Positions 17,975-33,384 of a stretch of DNA of 64,000 nt are shown here, one piece after another. This DNA comes from Gammaproteobacteria bacterium (lineage in GTDB: Bacteria; Pseudomonadota; Gammaproteobacteria; SZUA-229), in assembly GCA_013041745.1 (NCBI GenBank), contig JABDRN010000034.1:1-64000 (forward strand), given 5' to 3'. Numbering within the stretch: the stretch's first letter is position 1; every line of letters begins with the position of its first letter. Both the position numbers and the translations under genes were made by a program. The notes below the pieces were generated by a model. It had not been told where the DNA came from and made no database searches. It saw only the letters and a program-made list of their open reading frames with translations.

Positions 17975-18106
17975 AATATATTTTGTTGTTATAGCTATTT
18001 TTATTACACATTGAGTGACTTTTTCAGGGCGAGAAAGTTCATCCCTCATTGGGGGAGTATATTATCGTCATTTCTAGTGTAAGATGTGATTGTTTTTTGA
18101 ATTTTC

Positions 18107-18345
18107 AACATCAGGTGCTGCCATCACACTGTTTTTTTGATGGCAGATAATCGGGAAGCTGGTGCATTCGATCTGTTCGTCTGGACAGGATCGAATAATG
18201 CCAGCGCTGCCCCCGCAACGGTGATTGGTGAGAATTATTCAGCCACTGCGAACTCGTTCGTGGGAAGGGGATAGTTCAGGCATCGAAATATATGGCCAAC
18301 ATGTATCTCGTTACACACCATAAGCCCGGAGACCGGCCTGATGTT
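18107..18345 (+). promoter_or_regulatory. Cobalamin riboswitch
   Basis: Closing stem AACATCAGG (18107-18115) pairs perfectly with CCTGATGTT (18337-18345). Inside are the conserved core words of the AdoCbl class: ATCGGGAAGCTGGTG at about 18151, CCAGCGCTGCCCCCGCAACG at about 18200, and the B12 box AGCCCGGAGACCGGCCT at 18323-18339. It ends 32 bases before the ATG of a B12-type TonB-dependent receptor. This placement suggests repression of uptake when coenzyme B12 is plentiful, most likely at translation since no T-run follows. Confidence 0.95.
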
Positions 18346-18377
18346 ATTTATACATTAGTCGCGGTGGGCGGCATGGT

Positions 18378-29558: not shown

Positions 29559-29701
29559 CTACTTCTATTATATAAGCCTGCAATCACCTGCTAGTCCTGA
29601 CTGATTATAGGTAGTGCACAGCTGGAAGCCAGCAGGAGGATTTCCAGCTGGTACTGAGGCCGAGTTTTAAATTCCAGTTTAGCCTAATGCAACTAACCAT
29701 A

Positions 29702-30133
29702 TCATTCGAGTGAGTTCAGCAGGGTCTTGATCTCGGCTCGAACAGAATCGATCGATGCGACAATCTTTTCGACAGAATCTCTGTTACTCGCCATCGCGCT
29801 CCATTGGTTGGACCAGACCTTTTTCAGTGTGGCAGATTCCTCTCTGACAGCGTCATCCGTCAATGCGCTCAGGTCAACGACGAGACCGACCGTCACCCAT
29901 CCTTTTCGCGGATTACCTTCTTCGAGGTCTTTGTCGTAATGCGCTGAATAGACTAACTGCTCCAGGGAAGACAGGTTGATCAATATCTCAAAACAGGCTG
30001 TGCGGATATTGTTGTTCTCTTCTGATGCCTCCATGCGCCATACATTGTATGAGAAACCGATCAGAGCGAACAGCACGCTGAATATGACTGTCGCCTGGTA
30101 AAGTCGAAGCTTTTTATACATAGTCGTATCCAT
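29702..30133 (-). CDS. Unrecognised single-pass membrane protein
   Basis: A 143-aa protein with one N-terminal membrane helix (ATVIFSVLFALIGFSYNVW) followed by a helical, charged periplasmic or cytosolic domain. The latter ends with a coiled-coil-like segment (SVEKIVASIDSVRAEIKTLL). I do not recognise the family. It lies 77 bases downstream of another membrane-anchored protein gene on the same strand and may form a pair with it. Confidence 0.6.
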   Translation of the reverse strand: MDTTMYKKLRLYQATVIFSVLFALIGFSYNVWRMEASEENNNIRTACFEILINLSSLEQLVYSAHYDKDLEEGNPRKGWVTVGLVVDLSALTDDAVREESATLKKVWSNQWSAMASNRDSVEKIVASIDSVRAEIKTLLNSLE

Positions 30134-30210
30134 GGTTTTTAGCTAAGGCAGCATGTAAGTGCGATCTCACCTGATGCAGCATGACCAGGCGTCCAGCTTG
30201 ATGTGCCTCG

Positions 30211-30933
30211 TCATATCTTATCAGGTTCCTGAAGGATCATCGCGGATACCAGTTTCGCAAGTATGTCCTGTTTGCTTACCATGTATAGATATTTCATATC
30301 GTTGGTAACGATAGCGATGTGATCTGTCTGCTTGCTCTGCATCTGCATCAAAACTTCACTCGCTGAGGAAGAGGGGAAGGCATATTCGTCACGTAATCCA
30401 ATGATCTCGTTTTTCAATTGCGCATAGGTATATATGGTGCGGCTCCTCAGTTGCCCCATGAACAGCCCGGCAGGTATCCAGGATTCAAATTCACCGTCAC
30501 CCATGAAGATGATGTATTTGACGCCCAGCATGTTGACATACTTTTCCAATACCACCGATGAGTAACGGATGCCCGTTTTCAGGATCATCACATCGACAGG
30601 CTTGCCGCCGTGTTCTTCGCTCTGCTGTCTCAGGTTGTCGATCAGGCTTTCGTCGCCTTTTTCGATAACCCACTCTTCATAATCATGATCGACCAAAGAT
30701 ACAGAAAGGTCGCCAAGGTTTAACTTGGATATCTCGGTTTCCCTGGCTCGCTCACCGATCTTTATCCATGGCGTCTCCAGGCTCCGCCCCTGTTCTCCGA
30801 CAGCTTTTTTTGCGATCTGGATAAAATCTACGACATCAGAGCGGAACCACACGATGAGCAAGATAATAAATAATGGTGTAACCAGGGAAGAGAGGAGTGG
30901 TATCCAGTCCTTCATGACGGTTTCGGTACTCAT
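30211..30933 (-). CDS. Membrane-anchored protein with CBS-like C-terminus
   Basis: A 240-aa protein. It has an N-terminal membrane helix (LVTPLFIILLIVWF), then a mixed alpha/beta region (VDVMILKTGIRYSSVVLEKY) of unknown fold. A final stretch (SSSASEVLMQMQSKQTDHIA, then SKQDILAKLVSAMI) resembles one CBS half-domain, a nucleotide-sensing module. The CBS reading is tentative; no family assigned. Located beside an integron-type cassette. Confidence 0.6.
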   Translation of the reverse strand: MSTETVMKDWIPLLSSLVTPLFIILLIVWFRSDVVDFIQIAKKAVGEQGRSLETPWIKIGERARETEISKLNLGDLSVSLVDHDYEEWVIEKGDESLIDNLRQQSEEHGGKPVDVMILKTGIRYSSVVLEKYVNMLGVKYIIFMGDGEFESWIPAGLFMGQLRSRTIYTYAQLKNEIIGLRDEYAFPSSSASEVLMQMQSKQTDHIAIVTNDMKYLYMVSKQDILAKLVSAMILQEPDKI

Positions 30934-31182
30934 AATAGTTCTCCATTAATATATGACGCTTCAGTAAGCTTTGCTGAATAACACCGTTGTTTGATATCGG
31001 GGTTGCTTATCATTTGTCACCGACCATTTTGATTAGAGCTTTAACTGACCAAGTCGAAGTATACGAACTTCTGAATTACTTAGCTTTGTACTATCTATAT
31101 TCGCCTTGGTCAATAATGCACAAAAACTATTTGTGTCAGGGTGTCCCAGAATGACGAGCATGTTTTTTTATTGCCCTTCTTA

Positions 31183-31248
31183 GCCTAACGTTTGAGTTAA
31201 CTTGGCTTCGCGTCGTTTGTGCCGGTCAAGTTGGACGACTTGTTAGTA
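31183..31248 (-). other. Integron attC recombination site
   Basis: In the minus-strand reading the site begins TACTAACAAGTCGTCCAACT and ends AAGTTAACTCAAACGTTAGG followed by C. This is the R''-L'' ... L'-R' order of attC sites. R' is GTTAGGC, and complementary CCAACTTG / CAAGTT arms flank a GC-rich centre. The stop codon of the gene at 31243 falls inside the R'' box, as in mobile gene cassettes. No integrase gene or second complete attC is seen. The remaining 250 bases of this gap (30934-31182) hold nothing I recognise. Confidence 0.8.
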
Positions 31249-31701
31249 ATTTTCATTTTGCGCATCCTTAATCTTTTGCGAAAACTCTATGAAGTTATCC
31301 TCTGTAGCTGAAAAGAAGTTTACCGGCTCAGAATTGATTAGTTTTATCTCTTTATCATCAACGGAATAAATAAAGACTTGCCCAAGTAACCTTTTAGAGT
31401 CACCAGTAAGCTCTGTGCCCCATGCTGATAAGAGAATTTTAAAATTATCATCAGCATCTAGAACAGCAAAACCTTCAAAGAAATGAAAATCATCTTTAGT
31501 AAATTTAACTGACTCCCCTGCAGAGTCTCCATATATATGAAAGTAACTGCCGATAAAGTCTTTGTTTATAATGATCTTTTGATATTTATGCGCGTAACCA
31601 TATTTATAACTTTCCCAGGTACCGATGAGTACCGTACTATCCCATGAAGAATGAGCGTTTAAAGATATAAATAAGATAATGCTAAAGAGTGCTTGTTTCA
31701 T
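31243..31701 (-). CDS. Cassette-borne exported protein of unknown function
   Basis: A 152-aa protein with signal peptide (MKQALFSIILFISLNAHS, cut before SWDS) and a beta-rich mature part. The opening VLIGTWESYKYGYAHKYQKI looks like the start of a lipocalin-like 'GTW' domain. Base composition is clearly more AT-rich than the flanking genes, and its stop codon lies inside an attC site, so it is a transferred integron cassette. I do not recognise the family. Confidence 0.75.
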   Translation of the reverse strand: MKQALFSIILFISLNAHSSWDSTVLIGTWESYKYGYAHKYQKIIINKDFIGSYFHIYGDSAGESVKFTKDDFHFFEGFAVLDADDNFKILLSAWGTELTGDSKRLLGQVFIYSVDDKEIKLINSEPVNFFSATEDNFIEFSQKIKDAQNENY

Positions 31702-31737
31702 ATTTTATATCACTAACTACAATTAGAAGGTTTAAAA

Positions 31738-31764
31738 GCCCAATTTGCAAACTGAATTTTAGGC
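31738..31764. other. Possible shrunken attC at the cassette's other edge
   Basis: On the minus strand the 27-base word GCCTAAAATTCAGTTTGCAA plus ATTGGGC has the outer boxes of an attC site (GCCTAAM...TTGGGC) without the central stem. If real it marks the left boundary of the cassette, 37 bases upstream of the gene start. Weak. Confidence 0.2.
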
Positions 31765-31947
31765 AATATGATAATTTGAATTTTAGTAAAAATCAGATAC
31801 ATGGTTCCAAATCAGGGTGCCGAAAAAGGGTTTTAAGAGGTGCTGAACGTTGACATGCAGGTGTAATATCTTGTCAAGAAAAGGTGCCTGATTTATTTCC
31901 TGTTTATTAACTTCCATGTTTAATGCTTTTATGAAGATGACTTGATT

Positions 31948-33384
31948 CTATAAAGATGGTGATCTTATTACCATCATTTTCTCTATCTGCATGTCTCTGA
32001 ATGTATGCGGAATTCCGCCGACGCCGTGGCCTGAATGCTTCAGTCCGGCGAAGGGCATCCAGTCGACGCGGAAGGCGGTGTGGTCGTTGACCATGACGGC
32101 GGAGGCGTCGAGCTGTTTGAACGCATGCATGCAGGTGTCGATGTTCTTCGAGAAGACAGCAGCCTGGAATGCGACGTCGAGGCTGTTTGCCTGCTCGATG
32201 GCATCGTCTATATCCTCGTACTCGTAGACACAGATGACCGGTCCGAAGATCTCGTTCTTTGAGATGGTGGCATCGGCCGGCGGGTTGAACAATACGGTTG
32301 CCTGGTAACAGCTGTCTGATATTTTTTCACCGCCGGCGATGAGTTCTGCGCCTTTATCGACGGCATCCTGTACCCATTCTGCGACACGGTCGGTCTCTGC
32401 ATGCCTGATGAGCGGCCCGATCTCGGTATCGTCTGATGTCGGGTCGCCTATCTTCATCTTGCTGCCGGTGTCGGCAATCTTTTCGGCGAGTTCCCTGGCG
32501 ATGGATTTTTCTGCATACACCCGCTGCACCGATACGCATACCTGGCCGGCATGGTAGAAACCCGCCTTTGATAACAGTGCGACGGTGTCATCCATGTCGG
32601 CATCATGCGAGACGATGACGGGCGCGACACCACCATGTTCCAGTGCGCAACGTGTGCCGGGTGCCAGCTTCGAACGTAACATCCAGCCGACGCGGGCACT
32701 GCCGATGAAGCTGAAGAAACCGACACGGTTATCTGATACCAGCTGTGTCGCTGCATCATGATCAGTGGTGACGATGCCCTGGCACCAGGCCTGGGGCAGG
32801 CCGGCTTGGTGCAGTATCTCGATCAGGCGGAAACAGGACAGCGGGGTGTCTTCTGCCGGTTTGATGATGACTGGGCATCCTGCCGCGATGGCTGGCCCGA
32901 CCTGGTGTACAGCGAGGTTGAGCGGATGGTTGAATGCACTCACTGCAACGACCACGCCGATCGGTTCATGCGTGGTAAATGCCAGGCGGTTCATCGAGGC
33001 AGCGTTCTTTCCCATGGGGATCTCTTCACCGTGTTCACTGCGTATGACTTCGACACAGTTCTTCATGCCGTCGATGGCCCGGGCGACTTCGACTTTCGAA
33101 TCGGGCAATGGTTTGCCGCCTTCACGCGCGGCTTCGACGGCCAGCTCATCAAAACGTGACTGCATGATGTGGGCGGCTTTTTCCAGGACATCGATGCGCT
33201 GCTCGGCGCTGAGCCATTGGCTTTTGTCGGTGAACAGTTGGTGTGCATTATTCAGCGCGATTTCGACGGCGTTGCTGTCACCGGTTTCGATGCTGGCGAT
33301 GTGGGCACCGTCAAAAGGTGCGGTAACGTCGACGCTGCCAGCGGCGGTTGCGCCGGGAACCAGGAGTTTGAAATGTTCAGCCAT
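31948..33384 (-). CDS. NAD(P)-dependent aldehyde dehydrogenase
   Basis: A 478-aa enzyme of the ALDH superfamily. The N-terminal region contains PIGVVVAVSAFNHPLNLAVH (catalytic Asn in AFNHP). A coenzyme loop ends FIGSARVGWMLRSK, the general base Glu is in CALEHGG, and the catalytic Cys is in AGQVCVSVQRVYAE. It oxidises an aldehyde to an acid; lactaldehyde, glycolaldehyde and succinate-semialdehyde enzymes are in this size class. It lies 180 bases downstream of the acetolactate-synthase-like gene, the gap holding palindromic repeat copy 4, so co-transcription is likely but not certain. Confidence 0.9.
   Translation of the reverse strand: MAEHFKLLVPGATAAGSVDVTAPFDGAHIASIETGDSNAVEIALNNAHQLFTDKSQWLSAEQRIDVLEKAAHIMQSRFDELAVEAAREGGKPLPDSKVEVARAIDGMKNCVEVIRSEHGEEIPMGKNAASMNRLAFTTHEPIGVVVAVSAFNHPLNLAVHQVGPAIAAGCPVIIKPAEDTPLSCFRLIEILHQAGLPQAWCQGIVTTDHDAATQLVSDNRVGFFSFIGSARVGWMLRSKLAPGTRCALEHGGVAPVIVSHDADMDDTVALLSKAGFYHAGQVCVSVQRVYAEKSIARELAEKIADTGSKMKIGDPTSDDTEIGPLIRHAETDRVAEWVQDAVDKGAELIAGGEKISDSCYQATVLFNPPADATISKNEIFGPVICVYEYEDIDDAIEQANSLDVAFQAAVFSKNIDTCMHAFKQLDASAVMVNDHTAFRVDWMPFAGLKHSGHGVGGIPHTFRDMQIEKMMVIRSPSL

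Follow-up and report, generated by a model that had tools for sequence, protein, structure and literature searches.

How does an integron gene cassette come to stand in a genome with no integrase gene beside it? The question is raised by a small gene with an attC site at its end, located behind an aldehyde dehydrogenase (ALDH) gene in a 64,000-nucleotide stretch of gammaproteobacterial DNA, which we refer to as the window. A sequence-only reading of the window had described a lone cassette without an integrase, either inserted at a secondary site or left over from an array. The analyses presented here indicate that the locus is very probably an integrase-less integron cassette locus that is headed by a detached attI. 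The features on which this is based are listed in Table 1.

Table 1. Features of the cassette locus and its surroundings, with positions in the window
Feature	Position	Strand	Remarks
54-bp conserved segment	29626-29679	minus	probable far side of an inserted block
Second cassette, truncated (start)	31033-31188	minus	N-terminal 42 aa of a flavodoxin-fold NAD(P)H oxidoreductase
Cassette attC	31183-31248	minus	covers the stop codon of the ORF; matched by covariance model R3
Complete gene cassette	31189-31716	minus	528 bp, from G^TT at the attI to G^TT in its own attC
Cassette ORF	31243-31701	minus	152 aa; exported-protein-like (signal-peptide-like) N-terminus; no known domain
Detached attI	31713-31826	minus	113-base; promoter-like -35/-10 region, imperfect hairpin, core TTCTAATTGTAG^TTAG
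ALDH gene	31948-33384	minus	conserved anchor upstream of the attI, outside the integron

The cassette and its edges

A search with an attC covariance model, which was the check suggested by the sequence-only reading, bore out the proposed attC. Model R3, trained on nine attCs of related genomes with the window attC left out, gave a single match in the 64 kb, at exactly this site (66.8 bits, E 2.7e-14). Sites that are 80-90% identical to it are present behind unrelated genes in four other genomes (G018, G044, G010 and G050). In an Rfam scan of the window no attC family was matched; the sole match was a cobalamin riboswitch at 18096-18355 (+), with 105 bits. When folded alone as DNA, the window attC was no better than its shuffles (z -0.34), which is expected for a mismatched attC, and the covariance model and the R''/R' pairing were therefore used instead. 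In G005 (L046, C138, 3952-4260), an attC that is 76% identical to that of the window is located beside IS91-like transposase and cytochrome-c-like genes.

The site was also correctly described as overlapping the end of an AT-rich gene for a small, putatively exported protein. A single ORF fills the cassette, and its stop codon falls within the R'' side of the attC. This patch has a GC content of about 0.30-0.38, compared to 0.55-0.60 for the genes on either side. The encoded protein has no match in Pfam and no confident homologue in the genome contig collection or the plasmids searched, and its single-sequence AlphaFold model reached a pLDDT of 47. Conservation of the gene in place among relatives would have spoken against a cassette; in the 53 related genomes no confident homologue was found (best E 0.007, 31% identity over 75 residues).

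In the circular form of a cassette, its first bases are joined to its own R'' box, and the bases that follow G^TT are therefore expected to pair with the R'' box at the other end of the cassette. The 5' bases of the window cassette, GTTAGTGA, pair with the R'' box TTACTAAC of its own attC over 8-9 positions, with one wobble. Moreover, sequences homologous to the DNA that precedes the cassette gene share one end point, which is the core TTCTAATTGTAGTTA. Together, the complementarity and this common end point establish the limits of the cassette given in Table 1, and the crossover G^TT at 31717/31716 is its true upstream edge. The 27-base word at 31738-31764, previously taken as a possible marker of this edge, is located inside the attI instead.

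Directly after the window attC a second cassette begins at 31188 (TTAGGC), of which only the start remains. The truncated reductase, MLVILGHPDTNSFCALLTKANIDSTKLSNSEVRILRLGQLKL, is 65% identical at the amino acid level and 74% at the nucleotide level to an intact cassette on contig C102 of the same genome, which encodes a flavodoxin-fold protein (PF02525), has the same start sequence and is preceded by an attC. The corresponding values for a gene of G005 are 67.5% and 79%. An inverted repeat (31046-31058/31100-31112) that was considered as a second attC is located inside the truncated reductase gene and was attributed to chance. Likewise, a 22-bp match of positions 31004-31025 to locus L048 was rejected as part of a cassette because it belongs to a dispersed palindrome, GTCACCGACC. 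Besides this fragment in the window, the palindrome is found near cassettes in L048 and L150. The fragment is located at the end of the truncated reductase cassette and may therefore mark a deletion.

The claim that there is no integrase holds for the locus and fails for the genome. At the locus, tblastn searches of the window with two IntI proteins returned only noise (E 0.87 or worse), and the window contains no complete integron, with intI, attI and attC in one locus. A genome-wide search for intI, as had been advised, identified an integrase gene on contig C122 (G000:C122:16906-17847) that scores 489 bits against the integron-integrase model, and this contig shows the order intI, attI, cassette with attC, contig end. 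The window cassette is a genuine integron cassette without an integrase in cis.

The element at the head of the cassette

The cassette is preceded by a conserved element that begins 121 bp past the ALDH stop codon. Alignment of ten copies revealed the order of its parts: promoter-like hexamers, a hairpin and an invariant core. The hexamers, TTGATT and TATTAT, are 16 bases apart; they were read on the G015 copy and are a consensus match only. For the hairpin, compensatory changes were found at 5 of its 11 pairs. The window copy matches the covariance model R1 of the element with 100 bits (E 5.6e-13), this copy being part of the R1 training set. Its hairpin is broken and its hexamers are weak or degenerate; a promoter search on this copy found no hexamers on its strand. 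Given the decay of both features and the truncation of the second cassette, the window copy is probably a relic that is no longer active. The element had no match among plasmids and phages in a distant blastn search, and its core was not found in viral contigs.

The identity of the element was established by copies elsewhere. In four genomes outside the family (G190, G158, G154 and G196), which were not in the R1 training set, R1 matches are located 15-27 bp from the start codons of integron integrases that are 56-67% identical to the IntI of the window genome. Since these independent copies adjoin intI, the element is identified as the attI type of this integrase group, of which the window copy is a detached example. 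Judged by its sequence, the 113-base element appears to be the region between intI and the cassettes in the integrons of one integrase clade. Among the integrases sampled, the core TTGTAGTTA occurs next to intI only in the group holding the IntI of the window genome, in a tree in which some deep nodes are weak. In line with its identity as an attI, cassettes start exactly at the core on contigs C27 and C2 of the window genome and in G002, G014, G015, G048, G196 and others, starts that were read as insertions in the sequence. The intI beside the linked attI of G196 (L230, C1, 10047-11050) appears to be broken near its C-terminus, giving two tblastn pieces, and may contain a frameshift.

The attI beside the C122 integrase gene of the window genome is of a different subtype: it has no R1 match and shares the core with one mismatch. 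The cognate integrase of the window attI may therefore be the one encoded on C122 or one that has been lost. Other integron parts of this genome are a cassette array on C102 and a second detached attI on C2 (L182, 10036-14622). The latter is located directly behind ssb and heads a carboxymuconolactone decarboxylase-like cassette with an attC; further cassette-like genes on C2 are of the PDZ/hydrolase, DM13 and GFA types.

Detached copies in other genomes

We then asked how often the attI stands apart from an integrase gene. R1 gave 24 matches in 15 of the 54 family genomes, most of which are draft MAGs, and none of these matches shares a contig with a full-length intI. Among the well-scoring copies that have enough DNA behind them, nearly all head a cassette with an R'' box that is complementary to the junction; for the weak matches at the foot of the list this is less clear. 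Pairing was found at 61 of the 64 variable positions of 16 junctions, compared to a mean of 26.9 and a maximum of 48 in permutations, a result that is inflated by the choice of the R'' boxes as the best-pairing candidates within 1.5 kb. Several of the chosen boxes coincide with attCs that were found independently by the covariance model.

The same architecture is present in finished genomes. G196 is a single contig of 3,111,340 bp with a completeness of 100%, and has four copies of the attI, one beside intI and three without an intI within about 10 kb. Downstream of the three detached copies, R'' boxes pair with the junctions over 10, 7 and 8 positions, and one of these copies heads at least seven attCs. 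Two detached copies are present in G098, which is likewise a single contig; about 10 kb on each side of them was checked for intI. Screening around the copies in G098, G196, G190 and G158 with the attC model detected 22 attCs, all located downstream and on the cassette strand. As both G196 and G098 are finished single-contig genomes, the detached copies are not accidents of assembly.

A further case is the isolate Stenotrophobium rhamnosiphilum GT1R17, which contains five heads of ~175 bp with the same core or a variant differing in 1-2 bases. Three of the five lead cassettes, with pairing over 8-9 positions. The search of this genome for integrases gave no match above the cut-off, only Xer-like ones. 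Within these heads (L203-L207) the core motif is repeated, TTAGCGGTCTAAT / TTAGGCGGTCTAAT. In two of them the junction reads GTTG in place of GTTA, with CAAC as its counterpart in R''. In the Methylococcaceae, two Methyloglobulus genomes have the same core next to intI. In two other genomes it stands by itself, behind nqrF and sdhC, and one of these genomes has its intI on another contig. Since detached attIs are also present in several genomes in which no intI was detectable, some of these loci may be fossils.

One GNAT cassette is found behind two detached attIs, located at a ribonucleotide reductase gene in G024 and at thiC in G021. Identity between these two loci is high from the attI core on, and upstream of it only the attI features are common to both. 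G024 and G012 share the gene that neighbours a detached attI; the spacer does not align, and inheritance at one locus could therefore not be shown. In G047, three detached attIs (L156, L160 and L162) are alike over a further ~250 bp on the 5' side, up to an abrupt left boundary, which would fit duplication of a larger head unit within the genome.

Origin of the locus and relation to known systems

The ALDH gene adjoins an acetolactate-synthase-like gene in ten related genomes, and the pair is conserved in the genus. In one of the related genomes (G016), a segment 87% identical to the 54-bp segment of Table 1 is located 155 bp from the ALDH stop codon, and positions 29680-31826 are absent. This spacing indicates that a block of ~2.15 kb was probably inserted in the window genome, with the reservation that G016 is identified as the empty site by one 54-bp match and is supportive only. 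Two other genes of the block, 30211-30933 and 29702-30133 (both minus), are oriented as the cassette. The former shows a weak match to a CBS domain, and no homologue of it was found in 53 family genomes. Neither gene is followed by a recognisable attC; they may be old cassettes that have lost their attC, or be unrelated.

The locus can be accounted for as follows. The attI of one integrase clade would stand alone behind the ALDH gene, and an IntI acting in trans, either now or formerly, would bind its core. The integrase would then insert the folded single-stranded attC (bottom strand) of a cassette circle at G^TT, as it would at its own attI. The product would be attI-cassette-attC, behind which stands a second cassette that has lost its remainder. 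The first cassette would be transcribed from the promoter-like hexamers of the attI, a promoter activity that is predicted from sequence. IntI recombination in trans is the most likely explanation for the cassettes at detached attIs, and we infer that copies of the attI have moved or spread to new loci.

The main alternative is an ordinary degraded integron, in which a complete integron at this spot lost its intI and left the attI and its first cassette. We consider it unlikely, though it deserves to be taken seriously. The truncated second cassette would fit such decay, and in a sister genome (G017; L038, C10:1-6000) a full intI is present directly behind the same ALDH gene, with its cassettes in the same direction. 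The spot may thus be favoured, or an older integron may have stood there, which would fit in situ loss of intI. However, the G017 integrase belongs to another clade than that of the window genome, its attI is different, and the 121 bp between ALDH and the window attI hold no recognisable remnant of an intI. In addition, three to five detached attIs are found in single genomes of relatives, a finished chromosome among them. To produce these, deletions with almost identical end points would have had to occur independently many times.

It is highly improbable that off-target activity of IntI placed the cassette at an attG, a non-canonical site in the genome. Insertion at attG sites is an established route for cassettes into genomes, and Loot et al. 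(2024) reportedly describe insertions into such non-classical targets. The window locus is alike in that its cassette is integrated away from the integron's own attI. However, its target is a recognisable attI instead of an arbitrary GTT: a conserved 113-base element with a core, a hairpin and a promoter-like region, independent copies of which flank intI in four genomes. An assembly artefact, with the cassette locus misjoined to the ALDH contig or intI lost at a contig break, is likewise highly improbable. The genome is a draft of 138 contigs and arrays often break assemblies (PMC9024848), but the contig is 69 kb long and extends >30 kb beyond the locus in both directions, and two finished single-contig genomes show the same architecture.

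With cassette capture at a detached attI as the preferred reading, a broader view is possible, which we put forward tentatively and at somewhat less than an even chance: the attIs would be multi-copy landing pads, with one integrase acting in trans on several promoter-bearing copies behind ordinary genes. If true, there would be more places where a captured gene can land beside a possible promoter, newly caught cassettes could be expressed at many loci, many arrays without an integrase would be active platforms and not decayed ones, and attI could spread without intI. The presence of several detached attIs per genome, heading different cassettes, in other gammaproteobacteria implies that the capture of cassettes need not depend on a platform beside the integrase. 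The copies also supply attI models for a group whose attI is poorly described.

Arrays without an integrase are usually read as debris, and the detached attI family makes their origin and activity testable. Clusters of attCs and single attCs without an integron integrase are known as CALIN and SALIN, respectively; they are defined by their attCs only, and have been proposed to be degraded integrons (PMC9024848; PMC12690207). Detection of attI by IntegronFinder is restricted to class 1, and integrons typically have one attI, located beside the integrase (PMC9024848). With one attC and no intI nearby, the window locus is a SALIN by count, and it resembles both types in having attC-bearing cassettes without intI in cis. 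It differs from them in its head, which is a conserved attI that is repeated several times per genome. With sedentary chromosomal integrons it shares the type of attI and attC, and the genome encodes an IntI of the same broad clade; in contrast to them, it has no adjacent intI, and attI platforms number several per genome, where one is typical.

We found one direct precedent, the Shewanella prophage M16-3, in which an attI starts an array without intI, the other array of that genome being complete (PMC9892861). M16-3 is a single case with near-identical attIs within a prophage, whereas the attIs described here form a diverged, multi-locus family across several bacterial families. The papers searched described no family of detached attIs that is conserved and multi-copy, and the claim of novelty is limited to these papers. 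As for the choice between a single cassette and the remnant of an array, the truncated second cassette agrees with a remnant in part, but the array is not just a decayed one. The window locus is a new variant of CALIN/SALIN, neither an insertion at a secondary site nor just a decayed array, which is set apart by the attI at its head.
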